Shown: piece by piece, positions 33,037 to 55,939 of the stretch
Layout of the letters: every line of letters starts with the position of its first letter
Position numbering within the stretch: the first letter of the stretch is position 1
Assembly (NCBI GenBank): GCA_021432605.1
Contig: MU271152.1
Coordinates: 620,001 to 684,000 of the forward strand
Direction: 5' to 3'
DNA length: 64,000 nucleotides
Source: Coniochaeta sp. PMI_546
Taxonomy: Eukaryota; Ascomycota; Sordariomycetes; Coniochaetales; Coniochaetaceae
Made by a program: the position numbers and the translations under genes
Notes under the pieces: model-generated
What the model was told of the DNA's origin: nothing
Database searches by the model: none
The model's input: the letters and a program-made list of their open reading frames with translations, nothing else

Positions 33037-35025
33037 ATGAACTGTCCCTCTCGGACTGACGAACCGCCCGTGTCGGATGGCTACAACCAGAGCCCCAATG
33101 CCTTGTCCAATGATCTGACCACAAATGCGGATCTGAATGGCATCTCGAACTTGAGACAGAGGAGCGACGATGCCTTGTCCATACTGAACGGAGGCCAAAG
33201 CTCAGAAGGGCCGGACATAACCACTCCTCATGACCCCGATGGACATCGTGGAAACTCAAGGGGTGGTGAGGCGACTGCGGGGTCAGGTGTCAAAGACCAG
33301 CAGTCGCCAGAAAAGGGGCGGTTCGACCTGGAGACTCTCGTGACTCGACAGTCCGCGTCTCCCTCGGTCACCGGCCCCGGCAGTGGCAGCGGCAGTGGAT
33401 CCAACCGCTCCGGCGGTCCCAAGCCTCTGCTTCACCGCATCCGGAACGGCCTGATTACCTTTGGCAAGTTTGTCGGGCCGGGCTTCATGGTTGCCGTGGC
33501 ATACAGTACGTCTTCCCCTTTTGACATCACATCATCTTCTCCTCCCCCGTGCCCAAGACTCACGTGACACACAGTCGACCCCGGCAACTACGCGACGGAC
33601 GTAGCAGCGGGTGCCAGCTACCGCTTCCGCCTGCTCTTCATCGTCCTGCTCAGCAACATCTTCGCCATCTTCCTGCAGAGCCTAGCCATCAAGCTCGGCA
33701 CCGTCTCCGGCCTCAATCTGGCCGAAGCCTGCCGCGCCTTTCTGCCCAGATGGCTCAACTACTTCCTCTACGTCATGGCCGAGGGCGCCATCATCGCCAC
33801 AGACATTGCCGAAGTCATCGGCACCGCCATCGCCATCAACCTGCTCGTCCCCAAGATCCCCCTGGTGGCGGGCTGCGCCCTGTCCATCCTCGACGTCATG
33901 GTCATCCTCTTCTTCTACCAGCCCAACGGCTCCATGCGCGGCCTGCGCTTCTTCGAGCTCGGCGTCATCCTGCTCGTGCTCGCCGTGGTGGTCTGCTTCT
34001 GCGTCCAGCTCAGCCTCATCCGGGACACGGCCGTCGGCGACGTCTTCAGGGGCTACCTCCCCAACGCCTCCATCACCGAGTCCAAGGGCCTGTACCAGGC
34101 CTGCGGCATCCTCGGCGCCACCGTCATGCCCCACAGCCTCTACCTCGGCTCCGGCATCGTCCAGGCCCGCCTCCGCGACTTCGACAACAAGTCCGGCCTG
34201 CTCCCGCCGGAGCCCCCCCAGTCGGCCGCCTCGAGCATGCGCGACGGCCACGGCAGCGCCGACAAGGCGACCTACATCCCGAGCCTGAAGGCCATCCGCT
34301 TCAGCCTCAAGTACTCCATCGCCGAGCTCGCCATCAGCCTCTTCACCTTTGCCTTGTTCGTCAACAGTGCCATCCTCATCGTGGCCGGCGCGTCTCTGTA
34401 CAACAACCCCGACGCGCTGGAGGCCGACATCTTCGGCATCCACGACCTGCTCTCCGCCTCCCTTTCTCCGGGCGCGGGGACCGTGTTCGCCCTGGCCCTG
34501 CTCCTCTCCGGCGTCAGCGCGGGCATAGTCTGCACCATCGCCGGCCAGATGGTCTCCGAGGGAGCCCTGAACTGGACGCTGAAGCCCTGGCTCCGCCGGC
34601 TGGTCACGCGGAGCATCAGCATCACGCCCAGCATCATCATCGCCGGCGCCGTGGGGCGGTCCGGCCTCGACGCCGCCCTGAACGGGAGCCAGGTCGCGCT
34701 GTCCGTCGTGCTGCCGTTTGTCACTGCCCCGCTGATCTACTTTACGTGCATGAATAAGTATATGACCGTGCAGCCGGGGATGGCGAGGTATGCGGTGCAG
34801 GGCACCGATGCCGAGACGGCCCTGGGGAGGAGAGTTACCGGGGACGAGGGCCGGAAGAGGAGTCTGTGGGCGAGGATTATGTTTAGGGGGGATGGAAACG
34901 AGGAGGTCGAGGGCGGTCCGGTGAGGATGGCGAATAGCTGGCTTGTTGCTGCTTTTGCGGTGTTGGTGTGGCTGATCATTACGGCTATGAATGTGGCGAA
35001 TCTGGTGTTGCTTGGGAAGGAGTGA
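33037..35025 (+). CDS. NRAMP manganese/divalent metal transporter (SMF-type)
   Basis: A 639-residue transporter in two exons (33037-33505, 33575-35025; GTACGT...CAG, phase 1). About 130 disordered Ser/Gly-rich residues precede eleven or so hydrophobic helices. The first helix carries the metal-binding DPGNYATD, split by the intron after the codon for Tyr-Ile. Helix 6 carries the GATVMPHSLYLGSG metal motif (MPH). The family imports Mn2+ and other divalent ions with protons at the plasma membrane, vacuole or endosomes. A Ser/Pro-rich insert follows helix 6. ATG 33037 has a strong context (TTCACCATGA); the frame is open upstream to 32944. The 402-codon frame at 33549-34757 is a shadow of the G/C-rich third positions. 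Confidence 0.92.
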
Positions 35026-35648
35026 GTTATGTTTTATTGATGGTGATGATGCTTTAATGTTATCAATGATGGATGGAAAGGCGTAGTGAAGGAGAAGAGG
35101 GTAGTGTTGGTCGTGAGCAAGCCCTGCATTGGTCTACACCGGGCGTCAAGATGGGTTTCAGGATAGGATGAATGAACAGGTTCCAGCTTCGAAAGACTCC
35201 AGTATCTGTACCCCTTGGTAATGAATTGGCATGTGCTGAAAGATACCCGTAGGGCAAAGCTATGTGTATGAGATGTTGAAGACTTGGCTGTTGTTTCTGT
35301 TTTCCGATGCTTCAGCTCTTCGTTGCTTCTGCTTTCCTGCGAGTCTTTGTTTTGTCGTCCTGCTGGTTGTTGAACTGTTTCTAGGTGTCGTTGATTCTAG
35401 GTCTCGAAACAAGCCTGTCAGGCAGCTACCCTTCACAGCTTGCTGAGCTTTGTAGACCTAGGCTTGAGAACTTCTTAGTAAGATCTCGCGCATTCTCCGG
35501 GTTGTAGAATCTCATTCATATCTGAGTCTTTGCAGGAGTATATAACAGCTCCCAGCTCCCAGCTCCCAGCCGATCTACTCGGACAGTCGGCAGTCATTCC
35601 CTTGGTTTGACATCTTACGAACACTATCTTCTGACTCCTCACATCATC
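35026..35648. other. Intergenic, upstream of F-box gene
   Basis: No gene is seen. Three tandem CAGCTCCC units occur at 35547-35569, just upstream of the F-box gene; this is too small to interpret. Confidence 0.4.
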
Positions 35649-37166
35649 ATGCCAACATCGAAGAAGCGCAAACGGCCCAATAAGCGAGCTGCGCCAAAGA
35701 AACAAGCGAAGACGCAGCAGACCCCCGAGAACCATGACATCCACGCGGGGGTGTCTGAAGGGAGCCTTGGGCAGCAGACACAACACCCGGTCACCTTGGG
35801 CGATCTGAAACGTACCATGGACCCTCTGATAGCGGCCCAGGTCTACAACGCCTGTCACAGTCCCATGGGCCGGCTCCCGGAGGAAATCGTGCTCGAGATC
35901 CTTCACTACCTCCGCCACGATATTGTTGGCCTTCATTGCCTTCGCCAGGTCTCCGCGCGATTCAGACGTCTCATATACTCGAAAGACATATGGCGCTACC
36001 TAAAACTACCACGCGAGACTTCAGGACCATGCATCGATCTTTCAAAGCTCTGGTACTACCCAGACGACCTGCGTGAGCGACTTCAATCGCACTTACAAAA
36101 AGACATGATGTGCAACAAATGCATCCTTAATCGTGATATGCACATTGTCACGGGGCACTGGAACCAAGAATCCTCTGCCGTTCTCCTTGCTCGTGCATTG
36201 TCCGAAGCATACCGGTTTATAATAGAGCCTCGTACCCCAGAGCTTCGTCGTTACTGTCACGGCTGTAGGGGTCATCATGACCTGTTACAGTTCTCGGATT
36301 CGGAGCAACAGCCTGAGAAACAAGAACGGCAGTGTCTGAGCCGTCAAGGAGCGGTAAAGCTCTGCGAGCACGTCCACATCGCTTGGGACGACATAGAGAC
36401 TCACATAAAGCACTGGTTGCATCGTGCGCCTGGTGACTGGCAGGCCTGCTTCGACCATTTCAAGATCGAGTGCCATGATCCAAGCCATGACACCCGATGC
36501 ATGGACGAGGCGTTGCCAACATGGCCGCGAGCCAGTCTATACAGCCGTAACGACGGTAAGGTGGCACTGAAGTTGGAGTGGGCACCTCACAGTGGCTTTG
36601 GGGCTATCAGACTCACCGCCGATGGACGTGCTCCCGCCCCGGACTTGAGGGCCATCTTCGCTAGGTATCGACGGGGGACGGCCAAAATCATGCTACCTGC
36701 GTACCGTCTAGATTTTCTGCCAGAGATGGTGTATTTTGATCCTTTCAGATGCAGTTGTCTTTACTACGCAGGGTGGAATGATGGGGAAAGATTCGAGACG
36801 AAGACTCCAACTGGTAAATCCGAGGACGGAACCTTCTTCCAGACACGGCCCGCCAGGAAAAGTTGTTCCCATCAGTATAATCGATACTGGGATGGCGGCA
36901 TCCAGAAAGTCAGCATGGAACGACACTGGGGGAAACGGTCGACCGACACGGTGTGCCTCGTTACCACGTACAGACGTGAAGTGGCGATCTGCTATCTCAC
37001 GAGTCCCAGCGGTTGCATCAGACCTTTCTACGAATGGTACAAAGCAATGGATCCGGACACGTACGACCGTCCCACTGACAGGTATTATGCTCGCCCGCCG
37101 TGCAAAGACGAGGACTGCATGAACTATTATCGATACCCAAGGAAGAACGACTTCTGGAAAGAGTAA
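35649..37166 (+). CDS. F-box protein
   Basis: A 505-residue, single-exon protein. A basic stretch (residues 5-20, KKRKRPNKRAAPKKQ) looks like a nuclear localisation signal. An F-box follows at about residues 74-120 (GRLPEEIVLEILHYL through the KDIWRYLKLP end), which would bind SKP1 and make the protein a substrate adaptor of an SCF ubiquitin ligase. A following segment has CNKCILNRD and YCHGCRGHHDL, two CxxC pairs that may bind zinc. No leucine-rich or WD repeats are visible, so the target is unknown. The first ATG in the frame is used. The gene is convergent with the GlcNAc-6-phosphate deacetylase and probably is not part of that cluster. Confidence 0.8.
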   Translation: MPTSKKRKRPNKRAAPKKQAKTQQTPENHDIHAGVSEGSLGQQTQHPVTLGDLKRTMDPLIAAQVYNACHSPMGRLPEEIVLEILHYLRHDIVGLHCLRQVSARFRRLIYSKDIWRYLKLPRETSGPCIDLSKLWYYPDDLRERLQSHLQKDMMCNKCILNRDMHIVTGHWNQESSAVLLARALSEAYRFIIEPRTPELRRYCHGCRGHHDLLQFSDSEQQPEKQERQCLSRQGAVKLCEHVHIAWDDIETHIKHWLHRAPGDWQACFDHFKIECHDPSHDTRCMDEALPTWPRASLYSRNDGKVALKLEWAPHSGFGAIRLTADGRAPAPDLRAIFARYRRGTAKIMLPAYRLDFLPEMVYFDPFRCSCLYYAGWNDGERFETKTPTGKSEDGTFFQTRPARKSCSHQYNRYWDGGIQKVSMERHWGKRSTDTVCLVTTYRREVAICYLTSPSGCIRPFYEWYKAMDPDTYDRPTDRYYARPPCKDEDCMNYYRYPRKNDFWKE

Positions 37167-37559: not shown

Positions 37560-38921
37560 CTAAAACACCCTCGCCCCGAATTTCCACACCTCATCAATAA
37601 CCAGCTTCGGCGTGCCGTCTTCATTCTTCTCCTCCGAAAAGACTACAAGGTCTGCATCGCCTCCGGCTTCCAGAGTACCTTTGACGCCCTGAACACCAAG
37701 CATAGCCGCCGGCGTGGCAGTGACGGCCTTCAAGGCCTGCGGTATCGACGCGCCGGACCATTTGAGGAAGTTGTTGACGCACTCGATAAGAGTGATGGAG
37801 CTGGTTCACGTCAGCATAATGCAACCCGAGTATATAGTGTAACCCATGGACGTCCCGCAAAGCACTCACCTTCCAGCAATGGTTTCCGACCCCTCGAGCA
37901 ACAACACACTTCCCTTCTTCACAATGAAGTTCTCCTCGTCACCGTTGGTCCACCGATACGCCCCGTCCGGCAGACCCACGAGATGCATCGCATCAGTGAC
38001 GAGGATGAACCCGTCCGGATGCGAGTTATACGCGATCTTGACCGTCGTGGGATGTAGATGGATACCATCGGAGATAACCCCGAAATAAGGCCGTGGCAGC
38101 GACTCCGCGATTCCTAACACTCCAAAGATGCCAGGGTTCCGGTGGTGCAGGGGCCGCATCGCATTGAACAGGTGCGTGATCATGGTCGCGCCCTTTTCGA
38201 CCGCAGCCGAGGCCTCTTCGTAGGTGGCTTCTGAGTGCCCGATAGAGTAGATGATGTTCCGGCTGCAGATCTCCGGGATGAGGGAGCTCATGCTGCCCCG
38301 TTCCGGCGCGGCGGTGATCATTTTTATGGGAAGGGGAGAAGATGATGTGGGGTTCGGAGTGATGTTCTCCGCGCCGTACATGTCCTCCAGGTCTTGGAAG
38401 GAGTTCGCTTCGACCAGGACGTTGCGGTTGTGCACGCCGTTCTTGGTCGGATTCAGGAACGGGCCCTCGACATGTGCGCCGAGGGATTCCGCGCCGTCAG
38501 AGGATTGGCGGTGGCTTCCTGATGGTCCGAGGAAAGGGAGGACCTTGTGGTAGAGCTCGCTGGTCTGGCTGGTGACTGTCGGAATGTACGAGGTCACGCC
38601 TGTTGCGACGATCTGCCGGTTGACCTCCTTGAGCTTCTTGCCGTACTGGGACATGTCCTCCAGGACGGTGGAGAAGTTGAACCCAAACGCTCCGTTGAGC
38701 TGGCATTCTATCATACCCGGCGACAGGATGCGGCCGCCGAGGTCGATTGTCTCATCCGGGAGGACACGCTCGTCGTAAAAGGCTGCTTGGCTCTGCAGGA
38801 TCTTGCCGGTGACGGAACTGACCCAGACGTCTCCGTCTACCAAGCTGTCGCCGACGACAAGCCTGCAGTTGGTGAACTTGGTGATGCCATTGACCGGCGC
38901 TTGCCGAATGGCGGAAGGCAT
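37560..38921 (-). CDS. dac1: N-acetylglucosamine-6-phosphate deacetylase
   Basis: A 430-residue NagA-type amidohydrolase in two exons (38921-37870, 37800-37560; GTGAGT...CAG, phase 2, joining as ETIAGSSITLIECV). It removes the acetyl group of GlcNAc-6-phosphate to give glucosamine-6-phosphate and acetate. Metal and catalytic motifs are present: HVEGPFLNP, the metal His in IGHSEATYEEA, THLFNAMRPLHHRNPG, and the catalytic Asp in VTDAMHLVGLPDG. The reading frame is open upstream to 39071 and would add a hydrophobic leader, but that extension has no ATG, so the first in-frame ATG at 38921 (MPSAIRQAP) is used. It is divergent from the GH3-GNAT gene. It is named after the Trichoderma reesei dac1 gene of the GlcNAc cluster. 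Confidence 0.94.
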
Positions 38922-40063
38922 GGTCTGATAGCCAAAGCGACGAGGACGCGTCAGGTTATCGCAGAGTGAAACGTAAGGACAGAGGTCCTTTGAAAGGTGT
39001 TGAGAGGCTCCATGTATCAAGAACAAGAAGGACAGGACCAGAGCCAAGATACGTGAAGAGACACTAACCACTTATTAGGTCTGACACGGCAGCGGACCGG
39101 CATCCAGTAATCCACTGTGTCGGATCAGATCACGGAATCTATGCGTCAGAGTACAACGGATCACGATGAGGTAACTGCCCACGAGTAGCAGAGAGAAGCA
39201 CGAGTGGTCGGGCCGGCGATAGCCACTTGGCCCATACCAGCATTGCCCTGCGTCACAGGCGAAAGGCAGAAGCTGGGCGAAAAAAGATGCGCAACGACGC
39301 AAGATCCACATGGCCGCTATATCACCTTACATTCGCCCGATAAGGATTTACCAGACACGATATACGGTGGACCTAACCTGCGGACTCGGTCGGAATCAAA
39401 GTTCCCAGCACGGTGTGGCGGAGAAGAGGCCGAAATGTCTTGTTGGTGAGTGTGACCGTCCAGTTGCCGCGACGGAGGCCTGAGTGGGAGGCAAGAGGCA
39501 ACCGTTCGCTCCTGCCAGAAGAATGTAACGTTGCCGGATCCCGGATCCGCTCCTGCCCCCGTCTGTCATCTTTCAACGGTCGAGTGAGACAAATGGAAGA
39601 CAAGCCTTTTGGAGACTTTGGAGTAATGGAGTCAACCCTTCAACGCCCTTCCTAATTGGGAATAGCGTAATTTCCCCTCAGTCCATGCGGATTCCCATCT
39701 CCAATCATCGATATTGTGTCAGCTTGGCCAATGAGAGAGGGCCGTGAATCAACCGCTCATGCTTCGTTCAATGTTCTATTGAGCTTCGACGCCAGCACTG
39801 ATGCTTGGGTCTCCGTTTCAGCCACCAAGATCATCCTAACGAGATACCTACCGGCACAGAGGTCGCGACATCTCTGTACAACTGCCTACCTCGGATCTCC
39901 CAGCTGTCTGTCAGTCTGACCCGCTAAGCTTAGAACCCAAGCTCAGCCAGACATGCCATCCATACGGTGACAGACAGGTACTACAAGGCGATCTCAGCAT
40001 CCATACCAACCTTCCAGCCCCCTGTGAGACTATTAGCTGAGGCTCAACTGCCTGGTCCTCACC
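38922..40063. promoter_or_regulatory. Divergent promoter of deacetylase and GH3-GNAT genes
   Basis: About 1.14 kb lies between two divergent GlcNAc-cluster genes, the natural place for RON1 (Ndt80-like) binding. Ndt80 binds gNCRCAAAW elements in yeast. The closest I noticed is GAGACAAAT at 39585-39593, which misses one conserved base. No coding frame is convincing here. Confidence 0.45.
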
Positions 40064-43000
40064 ATGGCCAAGTTCGACGCCGATTTAGACCCACTATGGC
40101 AGGACCTAGACTGGTACGTACCTCTTCTACTCGGCCTCTGCTATTGCGTGCCGGGCCACCGCCGACGGCGTTCGGGTCCGTGTGGACCTGTCTCGTATGT
40201 TGTATGCGGCTTCCTCGTGCTGACGCGGCTGGTCCCAAAAGGGCTATTGGCCAGATGTTGTTCATGGGATGGGACGGAACTGAAGTTACACCTCAGTTGC
40301 GCCATCTCATCGTTGATCATCACATCGGCTCCATCCTCTTAACAGCCAAGAACCTCAAATGTAAGGTCACCGTCAAACCTTAACTCGGACTCTGTCAGGG
40401 ACACACGTGAAATTGGTACGCTGACCACCTCGCAGCTGCCCATCAAACGGCCAGGCTCGTACAGGAGCTGCAGACGATTGCTCATCAAGCTGGCCATCCG
40501 CAACCTCTGCTGATTGCACTTGACCAGGAGAATGGTGGTGTTAACAGCTTGTTCGACGAGGCTTATATATGCCAGTTCCCTAGCTCCATGGGCCAGGCTG
40601 CCGCCGGCAGTCCAGAGCTCGCCTACACCATAGCCAAGGCCACAGCAACCGAAGTGTCGGCATGTGGCGTCAACCTAATCCTCGGACCCGTGTTGGACGT
40701 CCTCACCAACGCACGCAACCAGCAGATGGGTGTGCGCGCTACTGGTGACGACCCGCAGGAGGTCTCCCAATATGGTATCGCCGCCATAAACGGCTACAGG
40801 GCTGCCGGAGTAGCTACTTGCGGCAAGCACTTCCCTTCTTATGGCAACCTGGACTTCCTTGGCTCAAGCCTAGAAATGCCCATTATCACCCAGACACTGG
40901 AGGAGCTGTCACTCAGTGCTCTTGTTCCGTTCCGGAACGCTATCTCCACAGGATGTCTCGATGCCATGTTCGTTGGCGGCTGCGGTATCGCCAACCCATC
41001 CATGAACGTCAACCATGCTTGTCTATCAGATCAAGTTGTCGATGACTTGCTCAGACATGAGCTTGGGTTCACCGGTGTCGCCATTTCCGAGTGCCTAGAG
41101 ATGGAGTCTCTCCGCAACGAGATCGGTGTCAAAGCTGGTACGGTCATGGCTGTCGAAGCCGGCTGTGATCTGATCCTCCTTTGTAGGGCATACGACGTCC
41201 AGCTCGAAGCCATCTCCGGGCTGAAGCTCGGCGTCGAAAACGAACTCTTGACCAAGGAACGGATTTATACCTCGCTGAAGCGGATCCTGCGAATGAAGAG
41301 CTCATGCACTTCCTGGGCGAAAGCCTTGAACCCTCCGGGGATCTCGCTTCTCTCCAAGATCCACCCTGAACATCTGGCGCTGTCACGTAAGGCCTATGAT
41401 GGCTCTATAACCGTCATGCGCGACAACGAGAAACTCTTACCGCTCAACGAGACGATGCATATGAACGAGGAGCTTCTCCTCTTAACACCCCTCGTCAAGC
41501 CTCTTCCAGCGTCGTCAATGACCAAAACCATCCTCGAGGCCAAGAACGCAAATGCCCCTTCCAACCACGACAAATGGGCTCACCGTGATAGGGGTGCCAT
41601 CATGAGCGGCGAGGGCGTGTTCAGGGAACTGGGTAGGTCCCTAGCTCGTGCCAGACACGGAAAGCTTCTGCACACGTCCTACACAGCCAATGGTGTCCGA
41701 CCAGGTACAATCTCTTCTCTATTGATGTAAGAAACAACGCTAATGGAAGACACAGTTCACGAAAACCTCATCAACCGGGCCTCATGCATCATTATTGTCA
41801 CGGCAGATGCCAACAGAAACCTTTACCAAGCCGGTTTCACCAAGCATGTCGCCATGATGTGCTCCATGCTGAGAGCCAGCGGTCAGAAGAAGTCCCTGAT
41901 TGTGGTGGCCGTAAGCTCCCCGTACGACTTTGCTATGGACAAGTCCGTCGGAACGTATATCTGCACCTTTGACTTCACAGAGACGGCCATGTTTGCTCTC
42001 GTTCGAGCACTGTTCGGGGAATTTCAACCCCACGGCACCTTGCCCGGCACGCTGCGGAAGAGCAAAAAGGTTGTCAAGTCGAGGCAGCAATGGCTGGTTG
42101 AGAACTATAATCGCGACAGAGACGGCCGTGGCCTCGACGAGCTTTTACAAGCCTTGGCCAGGGCCAGTGCACCGAGTCATCAATATCTGCAGACAACAAC
42201 CGCCGCGGCCTTCGAGCTCTTCAACCCGAGCATCGTGGAATCGCACTTTGTGGTCCGGAACAGCAGCACTCACGCACTGTACGGTTTCTGCGCCACTTAT
42301 TTCACCAAGGGTATCGGGGTCATTGGAGCCATCTTCGTCGACCCATCGAAGCGCAACGTATCAATTGGAAGATCCCTACACCGGAGAGCGCTCCGTAGTC
42401 TCACTCAGAGACAAGGCATAAAGAAAGTCCAGCTTGGCATGTCCTTCCCAGGCGTTTACCTCGGCATACCAGTCGACGACAGCACGACCCTGAAGAGCTG
42501 GTTCGCAAGCAGCGGCTGGGATACTCAGTTCCCGAAGCGTCTCACCAACATGATCATCAACGACCTGACGACCTGGCAGGCGCCCGAAGGCTTACTGCAG
42601 AGCATTCAGCGCGCGAGCATCAGCTTCGACCTCATCCACGGTCTCGATAATGCCGAGAGCGTCTTGAACCACGTCGCAACGCACGCCACGCCAGGAGTCT
42701 ACGAGCTCTACAAGTATGCTCTCCAGGAGACCAAGACATGCGGTGTCGTGCGCGCCAAGAGCCCCGTCGACAGCCTGCTGGGTACGGTCATCATCTGCTC
42801 ACCCGGAAGCCACCTGGCCACGTACGTGCCAGCACTGTTTCCCACTCGGCGGGATGAGCTGATCGGCGGCATACTAGCGCCCGTCGTACCGTCCACAGCG
42901 CAAGCAAATCTTGTGTTGCAAGGCCTCGCACTCATGGGCGTCAGGCAGAACAAGGCGCATAAATCTCTGAGAAGCGTGCTGAGCTGGGTGCAAGACGAGA

Positions 43001-43131
43001 CCTACGAGCCGCTGTTGACCATGGGATTCAATGTGCTGCAGAGCTTTGAGGAGATTACGAATGCGCCGGAAAATGTGAGCGTCAAATCCTTATACTGTGT
43101 TTTACGAATGACAGAGCTAATAAGTGCATAG
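40064..43131 (+). CDS. nag3: GH3 hexosaminidase-like protein with GNAT-like domain
   Basis: A 937-residue protein in four exons (40064-40113, 40242-40360, 40436-41704, 41756-43131), lengths summing to a whole frame. The N-terminal part is a NagZ-type GH3 barrel (IGQMLFMGWDG, HIGSILLTAKN, ALDQENGGVN, LGPVLDV, CGKHFPSYGNL, VAISECLEME). The middle is the GH3 alpha/beta domain. The C-terminal third contains a GNAT acetyltransferase-like fold (IGAIFVDPSKRNVSIGRSLHRRAL). There is no signal peptide, so it is probably intracellular. It resembles the GH3 gene (nag3) of the T. reesei GlcNAc cluster. Oddly, the catalytic Asp-x-His dyad of bacterial NagZ is not seen, and Glu stands where the nucleophile Asp is expected (SECLEM versus SDDLSM). 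Whether it hydrolyses chitobiose or muropeptide-like substrates, or has another role, is open. Confidence 0.88.
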
Positions 43132-44078
43132 TTTATCGATGTTGTTTGAGATTTTGTACCGCGATTGTTATGTATGACGATTAGGATATGGATGCTTCTG
43201 GCGCTACTTATGTCTGCTATTTACCTGAGTTCTATTTCATCCTGTATCCTCAATCTCTACGCCCATATGATTCTTGCAAGCTTGAAGCTTCTACAGATCT
43301 ATCAGCACGTTTTTCGGTTGTCGGTTGTTCTGATGTCGTAGTCGTTACCCCTGATCAATCTCCATGTTCGCAGATCTGCGACACATCTCCACTAAACAGA
43401 CGTTATCAGGCAGCAAGATTCATCGAGCACACTTGATCAAGTCCATGGCGGATGGGAGGTCTCGTGCCGCTGTTTTTGTCCACTGACACGGATGATTGCA
43501 GCGCCCGAAGACCCTGAATTCTGCATCCCTCGGTCTCATTTCCCCAATGTCTCGAGCCGTGGCCGAAGTTTAGCACCTCTCTAGCGTGAGGGTCTGCAGA
43601 CTTTCAGGGTGGAAAGCAGGGCAGCCACACGGGGCCGAGCATGCTCAGGGTAACCTTGAACGGCTTCCCCTCACCCCACCACCATGTCCATGCATCCATC
43701 CAATTGGCGTTCTCGTCTTTGTCCGGCTGATAGGAACTGGAAGCTCTGTGGAACTGGGGAGGAAGCTGTGGTCGCTCCACTGGGGACTTACAACATTCGC
43801 CCGCCCGTCGCCCGCATCGCAATTGGGAAAGTCAAAAGTGCGCTATCGTGAACCACACTCTACTTTGCTACGTCTCCAGATTGACATCTGACAGTCCTCT
43901 CTCACCACAAGGAAAGTGCTTGTTCGAACAGAAAGTGAGCGTTTTGAAATACCATACCGGAAGTTCAGTCAACAGGCTCACCGGTAAAGTGACTCCTGGT
44001 CGGATTCGGCCGCGTCCGTCTGACAATTTAACCTTTACCAAATGCCGATAAAGGATCGACCACACGAGACGAGATGAG
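43132..44078. other. Intergenic, ron1 promoter
   Basis: No gene is supported. It is the upstream region of the cluster regulator gene. Small frames at 43188-43891 have no recognisable domain. Confidence 0.4.
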
Positions 44079-46044
44079 ATGATGTCCGCGTTCAACACCA
44101 TGCCGGCGCTCTCGTCTGGCGCACCCTCAGGACCCGATGGCCTAGGGCTGAGCCACAACGGCCAATCTCTGCACATGGATTTCGATCAAGATTTGAACTT
44201 TGACGAATCTCTCCTGTAAGTGCCTTTTACCCAAGAAGTCAGACAGACGGGCTTCCTGGGGAATCCCGATGTGGAAACGCGACCGAGTAAAAGAGGCCAC
44301 GAGGAGAATGACCATATAGACGCAACACAAAAACTAACAAGACGTCTTCCCTACCACCAGCGACGGAGTCAACGGCGGTCTACCACCACTACCCTTTACA
44401 CCTTCCTACGATTTCGAGACCTTCTCGACAACCTTTGAAGACCCCTTCTCCTCATATCCAACCAGACACTACGATGCCGTCGCCCCCGACGCCGAAGCCT
44501 ACAACGGCGAGGAATCCTCCCCGCAGGAGCTCGACAACAAGCTCCTCGGCTTCTCCGCCCCCATCATAAAAGCCGCCATCGTCCCCGACGAGTCCGCCGC
44601 CGGGGCTGCAGGCAGCCAATACTCCGACCCGGGCGAGGTCGGCATGAGCGCGGAGCTCTACGGCATGTTCTTCGTGGCCGAGGACGTCTTCGGCGGCGAC
44701 AACAACCCAGCCCGACCGCTGGAGCTAACGTGCTACCGCCGCAACCTATGGCAGTGCTCGGGGCAGATAACACTCCCCAAGTACGGCGTATCGGCCGTCG
44801 TCACGGAGCAAGGGCGACGGGTACCGGTCTTCGACCTCGCGGCGAGCATAACGGCCATCGAGTCTATCGAGGGCAAGTCGACGGAGATCATCAGCATACC
44901 CTGGAAGAGCAGCACGGCCAACCCGGGCGGCGCGGTATCGGAGGACACGAAGGTCGCCAGCGCCCCGCCGCAGGTACCGCTGGACCTCGGGAGCGGACAG
45001 GAGCTGGACGGGCACATGGTCTCGGTGCCCGTGTCGTGGAAGCGGCTGCAGTTCAAGCATGCCACGGCCAACAACGGCCGGCGGAAGGGGCTGCAGCAGC
45101 ACTACGTCGTGCAGATCAACCTGCTCGGCAAGACGAAGAGCGGCGAGTTCATCAAGATCGCCGAGATACAGTCCGGACCCGTGATCGTGCGCGGGAGGAG
45201 TCCGAGGAACTTCGACAGCCGGAAGGATGTGCCCTTGTCCGGGGACAAGAAACTGGAGAGGAGATCTACGGACACGTCTGTGGGATCTACTCCCGGTCCT
45301 GGTGTAGGCGGCGGCAAGACGGAAAGGGGCGATTTGGCGCTGAATATGCAGAGGTATCACTCTTTGGGGAATATACAGGTAGGCAATATCACTCCTTTCC
45401 CCTCCTTTCTCTTCCCCTCTCTTTCTATCATCGCTGACAAGAATATCTAGCAGTCCGCAGACTGGATATCAGCCCAGATCCCCTACCCACAACCACCAAC
45501 CCCTTCCCAACAACAACACCCCTCCAAGAAACTAGCCCTCTCTCCAAGTCTAACCCGGCCGCCCGTGCCGTCCTGGTCGAGCGACCCGTCCATATCCCAG
45601 CAGAGACCGCCCTCGACACCATCCATGGGCAAAACAATGCAGACCCTCCCCATCAACCTGTCGCTGTCCGAAGACGAGCGCAGCCCCAACAACCGCTCCG
45701 CCGGGTCGGATCCGATGTCCAGTCCGCAGTTCAACAAGACCCTGGCCTCCGGCGGGGTCGGCCAGAGTGCCCCCGGCGCGAATCCGAGCGGCAGTCCGCT
45801 GGAGACGGCGGATATGCTCTACGAGTATTTCCCGCTTAGTTTGGATGACTGGTAGGTGTCTTTTTCCAACTACGAAGGTTTAGGGGGGCCAGATGAGGAT
45901 GGGAAATGGGGCTAACGAAAGAGTTACAGGATGCCCCCCGTCGACGCGATTTACAGGCCTCATGTGGTTCATCATACCGTCGTGCCGCCCGAGGTCAAGG
46001 CGCAGCAGACGAGGACCAAGACGAAGAGGTATTTTACTGACTGA
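44079..46044 (+). CDS. ron1: Ndt80-like transcription factor RON1
   Basis: A 556-residue p53-like (NDT80/PhoG) transcription factor in four exons (44079-44215, 44361-45378, 45451-45851, 45930-46044). The DNA-binding domain covers about residues 140-330: LYGMFFVAEDVFGG, LTCYRRNLWQCSGQITLP, VSVPVSWKRLQFKHATANNGRRKG and QQHYVVQINLLGKTKSGEF. The N-terminus is acidic/aromatic, and the C-terminal half is Pro/Ser-rich, typical of activation regions. In T. reesei the orthologue RON1 activates the GlcNAc catabolic genes; here it sits inside the same gene set, between the two divergent pairs. An in-frame ATG pair begins the gene at 44079; an out-of-frame ATG at 44074 is followed at once by a stop. The last exon adds MPPVDAIYRPH and ends TKRYFTD. 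Confidence 0.92.
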
Positions 46045-46384
46045 CTGAGGCAGGGGAGGTGGTTTATTTTTTTTTTTTTTTAACAAGTCTACTTTGCGGA
46101 TATCCATTTCAAAGGCTTTGCGTTCTGGTTGAGCGTTGATCTTGACTGATGATTTCCCAACGAAACATCTGCTTACTAGCATTTGCCCCCCTACCCCCTT
46201 TTCGGCCCCGTATGGAGTTTGTTTTCTTTTTGCTCTTGCGATATCACAGTTGCCTTGGGATATGTACACTATCGGCTCAAAGAGGGATATGCGCGGCGGA
46301 AAGGAGAATTGGGGGAGGGAAGCCACAGCACAAATGCGTATTCTGCCTCAGGCAGCCAGGCTGCTAAGGTATGCGGGTGGGTGG

Positions 46385-46428
<44 letters not shown>

Positions 46429-47092
46429 GACTGAATGGTTACAAAAGTGGACGGGAGGACCCAAGAAACCGAGGCTGGGTAGGATCTGATAGCCATATGC
46501 GGGCTTCTTCTGATAAGGCTCGACCACTACCCGACCATGAGAATGAAATGTAACTTCCTCTTTTGGTAAATATTGATGGACATGATACTTGCTGATCCGG
46601 CCTCCTGATGATCTATCTCATTGTGGTTTTGGGCAAAGTCGTGGGAGGGGACAGGCTATCTGTGGCCTGATAATCCTCATAGCTGTTTCAGGAAGCCGAA
46701 ACAGGCACAAAGATAGTTGTTATCGCGTTCTTTCGCATGCAGTTCCGACCAGCGCTCGAGTTTGAAAAATATGGGTTTCATTCATATGTTCTGTTGCTCT
46801 CAGAGCCTCGCAGAGTAGACAAGCGCTATTTAAAAGGGCAGATGAGAAAAGTCAACGGTTTAGAAGGGACCGCTATTTATCTACAAAAAAACGCCTCTAA
46901 ACCATTCGTCCGTTAGGGGGTTCGAGTGAATCCGCCAACGGACAGCGCAATGCACCCTGTACTCCTCTCCTCGCAACTCTCAGAAATGGTATATATAGTA
47001 TGATGAATCGTCCGAAGATCGGATATTGGATCTTTCAGGGTATTAAGCCCTGGGTTTCTTCAACCTTGCTCCCTCCTACGAGTGACAGGGGT
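46045..47092. other. Convergent 3' region with long G run
   Basis: This 1-kb stretch lies between the 3' ends of ron1 and the hexokinase gene. It has a T14 run at about 46068-46081 and the 40-base G run listed separately. No gene is seen. Confidence 0.45.
46386..46425. repeat. Uninterrupted G40 homopolymer
   Basis: Forty consecutive G on the plus strand (C40 on the minus strand), flanked by GGTGGC and TTAGAC. Such a run is unusual in a fungal genome, can form G-quadruplexes, slips easily in replication and sequencing, and its exact length may be an assembly estimate. Confidence 0.9.
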
Positions 47093-48889
47093 TCAGTTCG
47101 CCTTGCCCTCCTCTACACAAGCCAGCGCAACCGCTGCGCCGATCAGCGAGCTCTCCTTCGCGGCAACGAGATCGATGCTGCCCGGCACGCCTCCGGCCGC
47201 TGTCGTGAGATCGTCGATGTACTTTTGGGTGTTTGTGAGGTAATGCGGGTAGTTCTCGATCACGGAGCCGTTGAAGGAGACGATGGTACGGGGTAACCGC
47301 AGCTCGGCTTCGGTCTCTGGCACGAAAGGGGACCCGGCGGTTATTAGGTCGCGCAGATACTCCGTCTCCGTTTCTGATTTCAGCTGCCAGAGTGCGAAGA
47401 GTGATGCCGCCACGATCGAACTGGATCGGCGGGAGACGTATGAAGCTATGGTTTGTAAGGCCTTCATATCGACCGTCGTAGGTTCCGGAAGAGAAGGGTA
47501 ACATTGTCTGAAGGCTGAGATGGCCTTGGAGAGTGACGGGCTCGTGTCTCTGCAAAGGCGGGTTAGTATTTGTAGCCGGACTCAGCTATAGGGCAAAGAC
47601 TCACGCTTCGATTATAGACATCGTCCGAGTGTCTAGAGAGTACTGCTTCGACAGCGATGGCGGAACAGTCCCTCCTAATATCCCGGTTGATTTGATAGCC
47701 TCAACGAAAGCGATGCGTGCCATCTCGCCCAGATAAAATCCGCTAACCAGGTACTCTAGGGGCTGGAAGTCGGGCCGTGGGTGACTGGCCGCTAGTATGC
47801 GATCCCACCGAGTGAAGGGGAGGATACCCTCGCCAAACATTCCCAGCTCGGTGTTGACGACGACATGGCTGGCCTTGTCAAACCAGCCATCTGGACGGAC
47901 CCCGTACTTCTTCGGGCTGATGGTCGGTATTGGAAGATGCGCAGCAATGTTGACTCCCGTGCCCAGGATCAAACTGAAGCGAGTGGCTTCATTGATATAT
48001 GCTTGTGAAAGCAAGGCTGCCGTCGAGTCGTTGACAATCGCTGCAAGCTCAACCTCCAACCCCTTTCCTTTGCACGCAGCTTGGATAACGTCTCCCAGGT
48101 CCTGGCCCAGGAGCCCATTTGCTGCAAGAAAGCCTTTGCCCATGTTGCGCAGGACACCACCCTTGAGGGACGTTTGCCTGCCGTGCGTTAGAAGACTGAT
48201 CCTTGTTTTCGGGATCTGCAGTGCAGAGAACTGCCGATCGGCACGGGATAAAGTCGGCCAGATGGCCGAGGGGAAAGGGAGACATACTCAATGGGAAAAC
48301 TCCACGCCAAGCCCATGGGAAGCGGCTTCTCCGAGCTGTTCTGCTTCACATCTTCGGCAACGGTCTCGACGATCAGATCCGCCATCCAGTTGAAGAAGTC
48401 CATCCCTTCGAGATTCTTGATAGGAGTGTCGATCGGAAAGGACTTCATGCGGATAATTCCGCTCTCACTGCCCCGCGCACCTCGGCTTCGCAGCTCGACA
48501 AGAGCAACGCGCAACGTCGAACCTCCGACATCCAGCGCTAGATACTGGCCTCTCTCGTAGCCGTTGGGTAGTTGGTAGTTGTAGGACGGCAGCATGCAGT
48601 CCGGATTCGACAACAAGCCCTCCCGAAACTGCAACTTGAGCTTCGAGGCAAACTCCTTCAACCCATCGCCCTCCGACGGTCCGAGAAGCAGCTCCTGGGC
48701 CTCCCTGAGGAAATCCTCGATCGTCCTCACAGGCTGATCCCTTGTGTCGACCTTCTGACTCTTCAAGACGGTGGGGCTGACCCAGAAGGCGAGAAAGGCT
48801 TGTATTAGCGACTTGCCGCGCAACAAGGACTTGAGGGCGGCAGCAAAGGCCTGGCGTAGTGTTGTCATTGCAGAAATGAGCGGCTGCAT
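47093..48889 (-). CDS. hxk3: Atypical hexokinase of the GlcNAc cluster
   Basis: A 543-residue hexokinase in three exons (48889-48288, 48177-47605, 47549-47093). The phosphate-binding motif is LALDVGGSTLRVALVEL (about residue 118), the sugar loop LAWSFPIEQTSLKGGVLRNMGKGF, and the catalytic Asp lies in AAIVNDSTAALLSQAY. Then come LILGTGVNIAA, NTELGMFG and LVSGFYLGEMARI. It differs from glycolytic hexokinases at many otherwise fixed positions (DVGGS for DLGGT, VNDS for INDT). It has an N-terminal extension with a hydrophobic segment (SLIQAFLAFWVSPTVL). In T. reesei the corresponding hxk3 product phosphorylates GlcNAc to GlcNAc-6-phosphate. A second in-frame ATG at 48868 is equally plausible as the start. 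It is divergent from the deaminase. Confidence 0.9.
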
Positions 48890-51330
48890 GACAAGAGAGG
48901 ACAGTCTCAGCTCAGGTCATCGAAATGGAGGAGAGAGACGGCTTAGAAGTATGGGCATCTCTCGATGGTGGAGGCAAGACGACAGGGGAGCCAGTCAGCG
49001 AGGTTTTTAGACCATTGTTCCTCCAGGTAAGGCGCGATTGGATTGTTGGTAGAAATCAACGAGAGAAGACACAAGCAGCCAACGGCGTCTCTCTGAGAAG
49101 TCACCGTAAGAAAGGGACTGGAACGGAGACGGCAGAAATGAAACCTGCCCTGTGGACTATGGGGAGGTGCTCAAGGTTCCTCCCGTATAAGCCTGAAAAG
49201 GGAAAGGGAAGGTGTCTTGCCAGCCAATGGATTCGGAGGTTGCAAGCCGGCGTAATAGTGGAGAGGCAGCCGACGATGAGGACCGTTAGCAACAAGAGGG
49301 GAACACGAGGCACGACGTTCTAGGTGCGTCTAATGTAATGCCAGCATGCTATGGCGTGTAGGGCATGGTATGTATTGTTATGCGGCCTCAGCTGAAGGAG
49401 ACTTGCTACCACCACAGAGAGGGCTCCTTAGGGGGGGAACAAGATAGCGAGCAATGTGGTAGGATATTGCCAGAGAATCAGAAACCAATAGTCGTGAGCC
49501 AATGGCAGGACAGCTTTGACCTGCGTTACAATAGGAAGAGAGGCGACAATGAACGTCCCATTATGGACAAAACGGCAATATTACGCTAAAATATCGCGGT
49601 AGAAGCTGGTAAGGTAGATGGGGGTCTACGGTTTGTGGTCTCCGTTGCTCCAGTACAAGGAAATGAAAGCCTGTCTCAGGCGGTGTCCCACTGGAAACAC
49701 TACCACAGGGTGAGCGGCGACTGGTGCAATTGTTGAGCGAGACGACGTTGGCAGAGTTGCCCTGTGGTTCCTTTTGGTGAAGAGAAACCTCCTTGGCGTT
49801 GTTGTATCCGATTTCAAGGGGAACGTAACGTTGCCTTAGTTCGACGGGTACACCAGTACACCTGTACATGTACGGGTCCGGTACAGAGAAGGGCGGATCC
49901 AGGCGTGGGATTGGCGCGCATTTGACAGACCAATTTCTGGGACCATCCGTACGAGCGTAGTGTACCCTGTGTACCCTGTGTACATTCACAATTGGCACCC
50001 CAGCGCACAGACCAAGCAGCCCTTTTCGCCTCGGATTGAGTGGAGATGTCATTCATGGATCGTCCCTTCCCTTTATGCAAAACTATCTGAACTTCCATCA
50101 AGAGGCAAGAGCAGAGAATCCGGTGTAGCGACTTCCTCTAGATGAAGTGGACTCTTTGGACTTTGATCAAACCCGAAAACTTTGTCAGAATAATGTTCGG
50201 ATAAGGTTGCACAACGATGCGCTAACTTATGAGCCGTTCAAGCGAGCCACTGCATAAGGTATCGCGCAATGGAGCCTCTCTGTTCTCTCAGCCTCACAGC
50301 AACCGCTCACGCTCACCTTGCTCACCGTGTCCACTGCCCACCGTGCCCACCTCGGGCCGGCGGTCCCATCACACATCGATCAGGTGCTCATTACTACGCA
50401 GTACTGTTACCACGGCGCTTCACCGTTGATGTAGTGGCTGCTCCATTGAAAACAGAAACCACCCGGAGATTCTGGCAGGTAACCTAACGTGACTGGATGA
50501 CGGTTTTGCAAAGTGCGTGGCAGTGCCACGGTCAGCGTCATCCTTCACTCAGTGGCTAACGTACTGGCCACCAGGCCACGCTGCCATTCCTCACTAGCTG
50601 ATAGGAGGACACTGACTGTCTGCGATAAAGATCTCTGATGAGCTAATGAATAGTAATGGCTGATCTCCGTTAACTGCACAGTTTCCAGCAAGTCAAGATC
50701 AGGCTCTAACGTACCGACACAACGTGCTACGTAGTGCCAGAGGAAGATCGTTTTCTTAGCTTCTCCACGCCGCCGCCATTCCCGGGGAGCTAGTCAGGCT
50801 AGTCTAGCATCCTTCTCCATGTCGACCATGTTATTAGTGATGCACCTTCAACGTCTGATGGGCCATCAAGGGTCCAGCACTCCGCAGCTCCCCGGGCCCA
50901 GTGAGACGACATCAACGTTCCATCGTCCGCTGAGTCCACTCCTATCAGAAACACGCCCACCACCGCGTGCACCACCAGTCTGCCTGTCATCCCCGGCGCT
51001 ATCCGCAATCCGGCCAGCGAGATGCTGTCCCGGGCACCGAGACTGTCGTCATTGTTACCACCAGCGTGGCTCTGCTTGTGCTAGTCCAGCGGTTAGTCGC
51101 CGCCGACAGGCTTCCAGTCTTCTAGAATGTCGTCTCTTAATCAGGTCTCAGAACCCCTTCTTTCTCGTCTTCCTTACTGTTCCCTCCTCTTCAAAGTCCA
51201 AGAAGAGCTATCTCTCAAAGCAACACCAGCCCTTCTCTGATTGCTCTCAGCTTCGGACAAGCTACTTTTTAACCCTAACGTTCACTGCCACCCTATCTCG
51301 CACATCACACCTCTTTCAGGCTAGTTCACG
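48890..51330. promoter_or_regulatory. Long divergent promoter of hexokinase and deaminase genes
   Basis: The 2.4 kb between the divergent hexokinase and deaminase genes has no convincing coding frame. Repeated GTAC steps around 49849-49883 (with CTGTACATGTAC) and three GTGTACCCT-like units at 49961-49985 are the only local patterns I noticed. The region is longer than the other intergenic gaps in the cluster, and no GlcNAc transporter coding remnant was recognised in it. Confidence 0.45.
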
Positions 51331-52609
51331 ATGAGGCTCATCATAAGGGACCAACCCGAGGCGGCGAGCGCATATGTAGCGAACTACATCATCGACCGCA
51401 TAAAGCATTTTGCTCCCACGCCGGCGCATCCGTTCGTGCTCGGCCTACCTACTGGTTCCAGCCCCCTCGGCGTCTATAGGATTCTCGTAGAGAAGTACAA
51501 GGCTGGCGAGGTATGCTAGGCCCCCTCTGTACTACCTGCACGTCCCAGAGGTCTGACTAAGGTACTCCTAGATATCCTTCGAGAATGTCATCACTTTCAA
51601 CATGGTAAGATTTTAGTGTACTTTCGCGTTCGTAGAAAACCCAAAATGTGAACCTCGGCCTGACATCGTCCAGGACGAGTACATTGGTATTCCGCGGGAT
51701 CATCCCGAGAGCTACCACTCCTTCATGTGGAAGCACTTCTTTTCCCACGTAAACATCCACCCCAACAACGTCAACATCCTCAACGGCAACGCACCCAACC
51801 TCGAAGCCGAATGCGTCGAGTACGAGGCCAAGATCAAGCGCGTTGGCGGCATCGACCTCTTCCTGGCAGGCATCGGTGAGGACGGCCACATCGCCTTCAA
51901 CGAGCCCGGCTCGTCACTCGCGTCCCGGACGCGGGTCAAGACGCTGGCGTACGACACCATCCTGGCCAACTCGCGCTTCTTTGACAACGACCTGGAGAAG
52001 GTGCCCAAGATGGCTCTTACGGTCGGTGTGCAGACCGTGCTCGAGGCGAGGGAGGTTGTCGTTATCATTCTGGGAGCGAGGAAGGCGCTGGCGCTGCAGC
52101 GGTGTATCGAGCAGGGCGTCAACCACATGTGGACGCTGTCGAGTCTGCAACTACATCCGCACCCGATGATTGTTTGCGACGAGGATGCCACGCTCGAGTT
52201 GCAGGTCAAGACTGTCAAGGTACTTATACGCATTTCCCCCCTTAGCCCTGGCATCCCCTCACTAACTTCCACTCAGTACTTCAAATCCATCGAAAAGGTC
52301 GCTCTGGCGCAGGGCTTCGAGCAGATCCTCCCCTCCAAGATCCGCACCGGTCCCGCCCCAGAAACCGTCGTCCAGTCGCCGCGACACGTCGACGAGGCCG
52401 AGTCCCCAACCATCGTCTCCCCGCAACCGACCACATCGCGTCTTCTCCGCGCCTCGTCGCCGGCCAGGGAGTATCCCATCCGCTCTCACTCGCCCGACGG
52501 CGATCTCGTCCCGGATCGCATGGCCAGTCGGATCCCAGAACCTGGTCTAACGAAGCGGCTGACACCTACGCCCGAGACGCAAAATAGGGTTGGTGCCGTT
52601 GGTGCTTGA
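51331..52609 (+). CDS. dam1: Glucosamine-6-phosphate deaminase
   Basis: A 363-residue NagB-type isomerase/deaminase in four exons (51331-51510, 51572-51604, 51674-52219, 52277-52609); exon 2 is only 33 bases. It converts glucosamine-6-phosphate to fructose-6-phosphate and ammonia, the entry to glycolysis. Family motifs are clear: [16 protein letters not shown], the catalytic Asp in [16 protein letters not shown], and [14 protein letters not shown]-type loop ([20 protein letters not shown]) with the catalytic His and Glu. The conserved enzyme ends near residue 280. A further 80 or so residues, Pro/Ser/Arg-rich, form a tail that bacterial enzymes of about 266 residues lack. The first ATG after a pyrimidine-rich leader is used. 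Confidence 0.95.
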
Positions 52610-53234: not shown

Positions 53235-53525
53235 TCAAAACCGACGCGCCTTTGGATTACCCTGATATTGACCCCCCCATTGAAAGGCGGCGCCCTTATC
53301 GGCGGGTTTGTTCGAGTTGTCCTCACGCCTCGCTGCCTCTTCCTTGGTAGCATCCGGGTTGTGATCCTTCTGCCTCCTTATACAGTCGCTGCATATGCCC
53401 TCGTGCTCCAGCCTTTCTGTCTTGGGGCCCAGGCACTCCGGCTTCCCGCAGGGCTTGATGACGGGCGGGAACTTGGCGCTGGCGTGCTCGCAGCCCTTCC
53501 AATAGTCCTCGGTTATGGCGCACAT
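53235..53525 (-). CDS. Small Cys/His-rich protein, copy 1 of 3
   Basis: A 96-residue, single-exon protein of unknown function. It begins MCAITEDYWKGCEHA and continues with CGKPECLGPK and HEGICSDCIRR, then a charged, Cys-free tail. The Cys/His spacing (MC, CxH, CxxxxCxGP, CxxC) is shared with two neighbouring same-strand genes at 54559-55239 and 55715-55939 and suggests zinc binding. There is no signal peptide or membrane helix, so it is probably intracellular. I know similar small proteins in many Pezizomycotina genomes, but no defined role. A possible TATA box lies about 255 bases upstream. Confidence 0.65.
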   Translation of the reverse strand: MCAITEDYWKGCEHASAKFPPVIKPCGKPECLGPKTERLEHEGICSDCIRRQKDHNPDATKEEAARREDNSNKPADKGAAFQWGGQYQGNPKARRF

Positions 53526-53780
53526 TGTTGGATCTGTGGATCAGTGTCGTAAGTTGGCTAGTGGTTCGACTGTGTCTTTGGGATGTTGGCTGTTTCCCTT
53601 GCTCTGGACGAGTCGAGGTTCACTCGTGAGTGATAGGTTTCGGAATTAGCTTCGAAAGCGTGAGAACTTAGGTGAGTTGCTGTTTGCATATCTTGATCCC
53701 CGTTTGGAGGATGCTCTCGTGCTGTTTGAACTGTGCTGCTTGAGACCTGGGCGTGGCATGGCAGTAGCATCTCCGAGAGG

Positions 53781-54558: not shown

Positions 54559-55239
54559 TCATGTCTCGCTCTCCACGCTATCCTCCTCCTCCTCCTCCTC
54601 GTCGTCGTCGTCGTCGTCGTCCTCGTCGTCGTACGGCGTCTCCATCCTCCTTCGCTTGTTCCTCCACCTTTCATCTTCCTCTTGGTCTGTTGACGTTCCA
54701 TTCTCAGAGGGTAGACCATGTTGATCCTGGTCTTCCTCGCGTTGTCGCTTGACTTGACGGTTGGCGCCTCGTATCATTCCAACCCGTTCACATGTAGCAG
54801 CCGAAAGTTGTGTCTCGTTGCGCTGCCCTTCTTGTCGTTTCACTTCCACTTGTTCCTCTTCCAGCTGACGCTCTTCCAGTTCTTTTTCAGCCCGCAGTTT
54901 CTCTTCCCAATCTCTCTTCTGCCACGCTCTCTCCATCCGCAGTTGCTCTTCCCACCGCCGGCGCAGTCGAAGCTGCCTCAGCATCTCGTCCCTCGCCGGA
55001 CGATACCGTGCCTCGTAGAGCTCCCTCTGTCTCCTGTCCTCCTCCGCGTCGAGATTGAGGGCACGTCTGCGTGCACGATCACAGCCGGGACAGATGCCGT
55101 CGTGCTGCAAGCTGACGGGGAACGAATCTTGCGACCCACCAGGCCCGAGCCAGCATCTCAGCAGATCATCGCAGCACGCCAATTCCCAGAGGCACCGGTG
55201 CCCGTAGTCCCTGAACAACTCCTGATGTTGGATGCACAT
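54559..55239 (-). CDS. Cys/His-rich protein with charged coiled tail, copy 2 of 3
   Basis: A 226-residue, single-exon protein. The first 60 residues repeat the layout of the neighbouring small genes: MCIQHQELFRDYGHRC, then a Cys-rich middle with CWLGPGG, then HDGICPGCDRA. Unlike them it continues into a long Arg/Glu-rich segment (residues 60-150), probably a coiled coil. It then has a basic KR-rich stretch and ends in an Asp/Glu run (about residues 205-222) encoded by GTC/TCC microsatellite-like DNA. Function is unknown. The acidic tail and basic patch are compatible with a nuclear or RNA/chromatin-associated protein, but that is only inference. Confidence 0.6.
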   Translation of the reverse strand: MCIQHQELFRDYGHRCLWELACCDDLLRCWLGPGGSQDSFPVSLQHDGICPGCDRARRRALNLDAEEDRRQRELYEARYRPARDEMLRQLRLRRRWEEQLRMERAWQKRDWEEKLRAEKELEERQLEEEQVEVKRQEGQRNETQLSAATCERVGMIRGANRQVKRQREEDQDQHGLPSENGTSTDQEEDERWRNKRRRMETPYDDEDDDDDDDEEEEEEDSVESET

Positions 55240-55714
55240 TGTCTTTATCTGTTGGACTTGTTAGGCACCACCTGACAGAAAGTCGCAGGCCCGCTGGTGA
55301 CTTTTTTCCTCGGAGATGTTCGATGCGTTCTGGGTCCGTCTAGGTATCTATCTATGTTACGTCTCCTGTTGAGTCGACTTGGGGTAGTCTGACATGAACA
55401 AGGATAACGACTTTGGTGATGACCACTGTTGTGAGTAATTGACGGGCGATACCTGGAAACAGCCGAATACCGAGAGTATGATGACTGAACATGGAATCGA
55501 GAATCTCAAAGCTGGAACGATGAAGCGAAGCCGAGAGCCGATGCTAGTAGATACCTATTGGGAAGACGAAAAATAATGCTCCAATTCCGGTATTGGTGAT
55601 CAGGAAACGAAGATGAAGGGTTGAGGACTTTCGACAACAAGCGCAGCGGGTGACATCGACCCGTATACCAAAGAAGAAGGACAGTGCGCCCATAACTTCC
55701 GGCGGCGACAGCCG
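55240..55714. other. Intergenic between Cys/His-rich copies 2 and 3
   Basis: No gene is seen; presumably the promoter of copy 2 and the 3' end of copy 3. Confidence 0.4.
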
Positions 55715-55939
55715 CTACTTCTGCCTCCTGTAAGGATCGTGGTTTCGAGCATTAGGATTGGGGTCCTTCTCTCTGGCGATGCAGTCGGAACAGTTTCCCT
55801 CCTTCCACTTGTCGGTCGTCCTCCACTCGGGGGTGCCTTTCGGACCAAAGCAGCCCCTTCCAAAGTCCGGGCACGGCTGCATCCAGTAGACGGACTCGTG
55901 CCCGCATTTTTTGTACTGGCACATCCGTTCCCAGCACAT
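55715..55939 (-). CDS. Small Cys/His-rich protein, copy 3 of 3
   Basis: A 74-residue protein beginning MCWERMCQYKKCGHES, then QPCPDFGRGCFGPKG and EGNCSDCIAREKDPNP. It shares with copy 1 the GP after a Cys, the G-x-CSDCI block and the following K-D-x-NP-[DN]-A string, so these two are the closest pair. The frame is open well upstream (to about 56161), but the upstream part lacks the family pattern and ends at CTTACAG just before the ATG, which could be the acceptor of a 5' leader intron. The ATG at 55939 is chosen because all three copies then start with Met-Cys. Function is unknown. Confidence 0.6.
   Translation of the reverse strand: MCWERMCQYKKCGHESVYWMQPCPDFGRGCFGPKGTPEWRTTDKWKEGNCSDCIAREKDPNPNARNHDPYRRQK

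Follow-up and report, generated by a model that had tools for sequence, protein, structure and literature searches.

The window examined here is a stretch of 64,000 nucleotides from Coniochaeta sp. PMI_546 (contig MU271152.1, positions 620,001-684,000; all coordinates below are those of the window). Between positions 37560 and 52609 it carries five intact spliced genes in the order dac1 (-), ngs1 (+), ron1 (+), hxk3 (-) and dam1 (+). This locus is very probably an N-acetylglucosamine (GlcNAc) catabolic cluster of the ascomycete type, complete with both of its regulators; gene content, gene order and key residues are observed directly, and the functions are those predicted from relatives in other fungi. 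Genes for a putative kinase, a deacetylase and a deaminase lie together with an Ndt80/PhoG-type transcription factor, read as RON1, and a protein with a GH3 and a GNAT part, for which the best reading is the GlcNAc sensor NGS1. The same gene set makes up the RON1 GlcNAc cluster described for ascomycetes (PMC4950302; published work is cited throughout from extracts of the papers named). The features of the locus are as follows:

37560-38921, minus strand: dac1, GlcNAc-6-phosphate deacetylase (430 amino acids, 2 exons; intron 37801-37869)
38922-40063: dac1/ngs1 divergent control region (1142 bases)
40064-43131, plus strand: ngs1, GH3 protein with altered catalytic residues and a GNAT part (937 amino acids, 4 exons; introns 40114-40241, 40361-40435 and 41705-41755)
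43132-44081, plus strand: intergenic ngs1-ron1 region, lying upstream of ron1 (950 bases)
44082-46044, plus strand: ron1, Ndt80/PhoG-type transcription factor (555 amino acids, 4 exons; introns 44216-44360, 45379-45450 and 45852-45929)
47093-48889, minus strand: hxk3, hexokinase-family kinase, predicted GlcNAc kinase (543 amino acids, 3 exons; introns 48178-48287 and 47550-47604)
48890-51330: hxk3/dam1 divergent control region (2441 bases)
51331-52609, plus strand: dam1, glucosamine-6-phosphate deaminase (363 amino acids, 4 exons; introns 51511-51571, 51605-51673 and 52220-52276)

Gene models and the predicted GlcNAc pathway

The outer limits of the cluster, first given by an earlier sequence-only reading of this DNA, fall at the stop codons of its two end genes, dac1 and dam1. 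Splice sites were picked by hand and the gene models rest on the sequence alone; the 12 introns of the five models are all of the GT...AG type, and the frames are free of internal stops. The intergenic gaps measure, in cluster order, 1142, 950, 1048 and 2441 bases. Within these gaps, codon usage was scored for all 45 stretches that stay free of stops over 60 codons or more; none was gene-like, the best reaching 0.034 per codon. For comparison, the values are 0.113-0.207 per codon for the five genes of the cluster, scored with training sets that excluded the gene in question, and 0.142-0.314 for four frames from outside it, of which one is partial. Because the gap stretches score below real genes, no additional coding gene of 60 codons or more is seen between the five, in agreement with the earlier claim that they are consecutive with no unrelated gene between them. 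A frame of 171 codons, starting at 50819 and ending across the start codon of dam1, was rejected as a gene since its codon score (-0.190) falls inside the null of 720 intergenic frames (median -0.231, 95th percentile -0.127). Between ron1 and hxk3 there is a run of 40 G at 46386-46425 (Tandem Repeats Finder row 46375-46425), which may be a genuine homopolymer or may have arisen in assembly.

The protein encoded by dac1 matches NCBIfam family TIGR00221 (nagA, 5.9e-70), above the curated cut-off, with no Pfam family found for its main frame at 0.001. Its closest solved structure is 7nut, named N-acetylglucosamine-6-phosphate deacetylase (4.1e-83), and residues E152, H229, H250 and D310, which we take to be metal and catalytic residues, stand at conserved places of this alignment. 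The dam1 protein matches TIGR00502 (nagB, 1.5e-120) over residues 1-259, likewise above the curated cut-off, and gives a gap-free alignment of 259 residues with 1ne7 (3.1e-114). It carries D72, D141, H143 and E148, presumably the expected active-site residues. Following the NagB domain, the DAM1 protein continues for a further 104 residues (15 Pro, 10 Ser, 10 Arg); beyond its first few residues, this tail lies outside all of the listed matched families (NCBIfam, Pfam) and solved structures. The hxk3 protein possesses both hexokinase domains (PF00349, 1e-42; PF03727, 1.2e-54) and matches hexokinases of the PDB (to 1.7e-67), and no NCBIfam family was matched. Its Asp 251 takes the position of the catalytic Asp, a role that we assume for it. 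From the context of the cluster, the substrate of this kinase is predicted to be GlcNAc.

A clustered set of kinase, deacetylase and deaminase genes, as expected of an ascomycete RON1 GlcNAc cluster, is therefore found at this locus. GlcNAc, the sugar of chitin, would enter the cell through a transporter encoded elsewhere and would be phosphorylated by HXK3 to GlcNAc-6-phosphate; DAC1 would then deacetylate this to glucosamine-6-phosphate, with release of acetate, and DAM1 would convert the product to fructose-6-phosphate and ammonium. This route to fructose-6-phosphate, already proposed in the sequence-only reading, is supported as far as sequence reaches, with the expected active-site residues kept. 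The identities and strands claimed there for the five genes are borne out by the spliced models and family matches, the matches of four proteins, and of the GH3 half of the fifth, exceeding chance by a wide margin.

The putative sensor NGS1 and the factor RON1

The N-terminal half of the ngs1 protein belongs to GH3 (PF00933, 2.9e-56), and both halves of the protein align with PDB entry 4zm6 (1.7e-92), the C-terminal half of which covers the GNAT part. We take 4zm6 to be the Nag of PMC12176254, presumably that of Rhizomucor miehei. What reads KHFPGHG...DSH in 4zm6 reads KHFPSYG...GSS in ngs1, so that the Lys-His pair (K187, H188) is kept while the triad has lost its Asp and its His. Residues G199, S200 and S201 replace DSH, and E275 replaces the nucleophile Asp (TDCLEMD in 4zm6). 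Two of the traits that mark an NGS1 sensor, a retained GlcNAc-binding Lys-His pair and lost GH3 catalytic residues, are thus present. In motif A of the GNAT part, the acetyl-CoA residues V674 and G684 are found ten residues apart, which is the spacing of V686/G696 in Candida albicans Ngs1 and of V685/G695 in Trichoderma reesei NGS1. H688 is present too, and matches His700 of the C. albicans protein by spacing. (Unless another source is named, statements on C. albicans, Yarrowia lipolytica and Aspergillus fumigatus draw jointly on extracts of PMC5063960, PMC12570498, PMC12584764 and PMC6415606.)

The GH3-GNAT protein might instead be no sensor at all but an active beta-N-acetylglucosaminidase or phosphorylase supplying the pathway with free GlcNAc, as first proposed for nag3 of T. 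reesei. The strength of the GH3 match would suit an enzyme, as would the name of the closest solved relative (4zm6, N-acetyl-beta-D-glucosaminidase), and the T. reesei authors still allow for a glucosidase activity of their NGS1 in the extract of PMC12176254. The change of D-S-H to G-S-S and of the nucleophile from Asp to Glu argues against such activity. T. reesei NGS1 has undergone the same kind of change, with G-S-N for DSH and Glu for the nucleophile, and it has been read as a sensor rather than a GH3 enzyme (PMC12176254). For C. albicans Ngs1, the extracts report no detected hydrolase activity and describe binding of GlcNAc by the Lys-His pair. An active enzyme is accordingly very unlikely. 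The GlcNAc sensor NGS1 is the best reading of this protein on residues and literature, since the catalytic residues are changed, the Lys-His pair is kept and T. reesei NGS1 shows comparable losses. The sequence-only reading had named the GH3 and GNAT domains rightly and had assigned the protein no role, although residues and literature point to the sensor.

A single-sequence fold of the C-terminal part of NGS1 was unusable (predicted local distance difference test, pLDDT, 41.2). That low-confidence model (pLDDT 41) displays a strand-helix order at the end of the protein, encoded at 42619-43128, which could be a second GNAT-like module. No relative of the C-terminal half was found among viral contigs or among bacterial and archaeal genomes, the latter giving 12 pattern matches of which 0 were confirmed.

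The ron1 protein carries a full NDT80_PhoG domain (PF05224, 2.1e-39, residues 166-332). An Ndt80/PhoG factor is thus located inside the cluster, as in the ascomycete RON1 cluster, where its presence has been described as frequent, not universal (PMC4950302). Against the PDB, the protein reached 0.089 to a chain of myelin regulatory factor, and a single-sequence fold of the Ndt80 region, for which the query began a few codons inside an intron, was unusable (pLDDT 33.1). By the mechanism carried over from Candida, Yarrowia and Trichoderma, RON1 on the promoters would recruit and hold NGS1; binding of GlcNAc by the non-catalytic GH3 barrel would activate the GNAT domain, histones would be acetylated and transcription of the cluster would be induced.

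Counter-evidence and the control regions

Three control regions were defined, namely dac1/ngs1, the region upstream of ron1, and hxk3/dam1 (4,533 bases together). Together with the ron1-hxk3 region, making four intergenic regions, they were scanned for the Ndt80 consensus (CRCAAAW and GNCRCAAAW), for CACAAA and for the CreA consensus (SYGGRG), with 200 dinucleotide shuffles of each region.

Several observations weigh against the cluster as read here. CRCAAAW occurs in 0 of the 3 control regions, with about 1.7 sites expected from the shuffles (0.32, 0.56 and 0.85). The best Pfam match of the GNAT part reaches 9.6e-4 with a piece of 187 residues (19.9 bits, below the cut-off of 20.7) and 0.0087 when the full-length protein is scanned. 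The Pfam search of the window, which covered 20 of the 36 long open reading frames listed outside the cluster and one short one, revealed no GlcNAc transporter. It is by its place in the cluster that the factor is identified as RON1 and not as the paralogue VIB-1. Lastly, the homologues in A. fumigatus A1163 are reported, in the extracts, not to be clustered, so clustering is not universal.

With regard to the GNAT part, weak homology has been reported for C. albicans Ngs1 as well. The transporters seen in the window are one NRAMP-type and one ABC-type protein, and ngt1 is named apart from the cluster genes in the extracts of PMC4950302 and PMC12176254. As to the factor, a VIB-1 type paralogue could have come to lie in the cluster, VIB-1 and RON1 being paralogues in Sordariomycetes and Leotiomycetes (PMC4950302). 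The published survey, as extracted, names RON1/XprG and not VIB-1 as the cluster member (PMC4950302), and we regard a VIB-1 type factor as extremely improbable.

The missing CRCAAAW is a weak negative, because chance itself would give few sites and because the motif of C. albicans Rep1 is rich in adenine and differs from the Ndt80 motif (PMC9925049). The longer GNCRCAAAW likewise occurs in 0 of the 3 control regions. The middle sporulation element represented by these two patterns, missing from the control regions, is not a defining feature of RON1, and in the extracts of the literature on the cluster no description of RON1's own DNA site was found. RON1 of filamentous fungi may act here via an undescribed site that does not have the Ndt80 core, like the adenine-rich motif of Rep1, a suggestion we consider less likely than not. 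CACAAA, described as an Ndt80 site (PMC9925049), is found once in the hxk3/dam1 region, a count reached by 133 of 200 shuffles. The convergent ron1-hxk3 region holds two CACAAA (13/200 shuffles) and one CRCAAAW (88/200 shuffles). For SYGGRG the dac1/ngs1 region has 1 site against 6.23 expected, the region upstream of ron1 has 6 against 3.58 (30/200 shuffles), ron1-hxk3 has 1 against 6.41, and hxk3/dam1 has 12 against 11.76.

Five 8-base words common to the control regions passed the filter, and no word of 9-12 bases did. The word GTCTGTCA is present four times in the window, always in control regions (three times in dac1/ngs1, once in hxk3/dam1). It was dropped as a shared site, because placing the three regions at random gave a word of this kind in 23 of 300 trials. 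Another, ACATGGAG, is present three times, once per control region and nowhere else in the window, and was also dropped, 87 of 300 random placements doing likewise. The other three words were also found elsewhere. Repeats inside the three control regions consist of three short imperfect palindromes, with no direct repeats.

The layout described in the sequence-only reading is real: dac1/ngs1 and hxk3/dam1 form divergent pairs with ron1 between them, and ron1, with its own upstream region of 950 bases, belongs to neither pair. It had also been suggested that a promoter shared within each pair could switch both of its genes. Such control would fit the geometry and, since the common words are no more than random placements give, is possible but unsupported. 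The genes could instead be neighbours by descent with a promoter each, their divergent layout having no regulatory role, which would be compatible with a GlcNAc cluster at this locus. The lack in the three control regions of an Ndt80-type site, and of any common word beyond chance, fits such a history, as do the splitting of the A. nidulans cluster by an inversion (PMC4950302) and the reported unclustered genes of A. fumigatus A1163. Against it stand T. reesei, in which all cluster genes are RON1-dependent (PMC4950302), and C. albicans, in which the divergent promoter common to NAG1 and DAC1 is occupied by Ngs1 and Rep1. On balance, a layout without regulatory role is a real possibility that falls somewhat short of an even chance.

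Surroundings and comparison with known systems

To the left of the cluster lie genes for an F-box protein (35526-37166, plus strand) and the NRAMP-type metal transporter (33568-35025, plus strand). Downstream of dam1, three frames on the minus strand (53235-53540, 54559-55260 and 55715-56173) open with a similar short Cys-rich pattern. When aligned they have 13 invariant columns and, measured against the first, the other two are 45% and 28% identical; no Pfam family was found for them at 0.001, and they are possibly a small tandem family. Further away, a second GH3 gene is divergent beside a GH31 gene (12167-14721, minus strand, and 15901-18279, plus strand); the domains of this GH3 gene (GH3 N-terminal, GH3 C-terminal and Fn3-like) are spread over two frames. 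A single open stretch of 1778 codons at 18721-24057 (minus strand) has no Pfam family at 0.001.

The system itself is already known, and the locus of Coniochaeta is a complete but ordinary member of it. It adds one more clean and complete primary-metabolism cluster that includes its own transcription factor together with its probable sugar sensor. Beyond the sequence-only reading, the present analysis contributes the reading of the fifth protein as a sensor and the missing Ndt80 core in the control regions, which touches on the question of which DNA site RON1 reads.

Clusters of this type have been described across Ascomycota, often including ron1 and nag3/ngs1 (PMC4950302). The match to the RON1-controlled cluster of T. 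reesei (hxk3, dac1, dam1, ron1 and nag3/ngs1), claimed earlier, holds in gene content, the same five gene families being clustered here. In that fungus, GlcNAc induces the cluster genes, and induction requires both RON1 and NGS1 (PMC4950302, PMC12176254). The two NGS1 proteins differ in the GH3 triad (G-S-N in T. reesei, G-S-S here), whereas the nucleophile Asp is replaced by Glu in both; the ngs1 model has four exons, compared with six in T. reesei (PMC12176254). R. miehei Nag (4zm6) likewise joins GH3 and a GNAT-type C-terminal half in one chain, but this named enzyme keeps the catalytic DSH and nucleophile Asp, both of which are lost from ngs1.

In C. albicans, Ngs1 binds GlcNAc, by which its acetyltransferase is activated, and Rep1 recruits Ngs1 to promoters; in Y. 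lipolytica, a Rep1/Ngs1-type pair interacts and both partners are needed. The C. albicans pair is likewise an Ndt80-type factor with a GH3-GNAT sensor, and controls the three enzymes there. The gene arrangement differs, as C. albicans NGS1 lies outside the enzyme cluster (PMC4950302) and ngs1 lies inside it here. Similarly, DAC1 of C. albicans is paired divergently with NAG1, whereas in Coniochaeta dac1 is paired with ngs1, and hxk3 with dam1.

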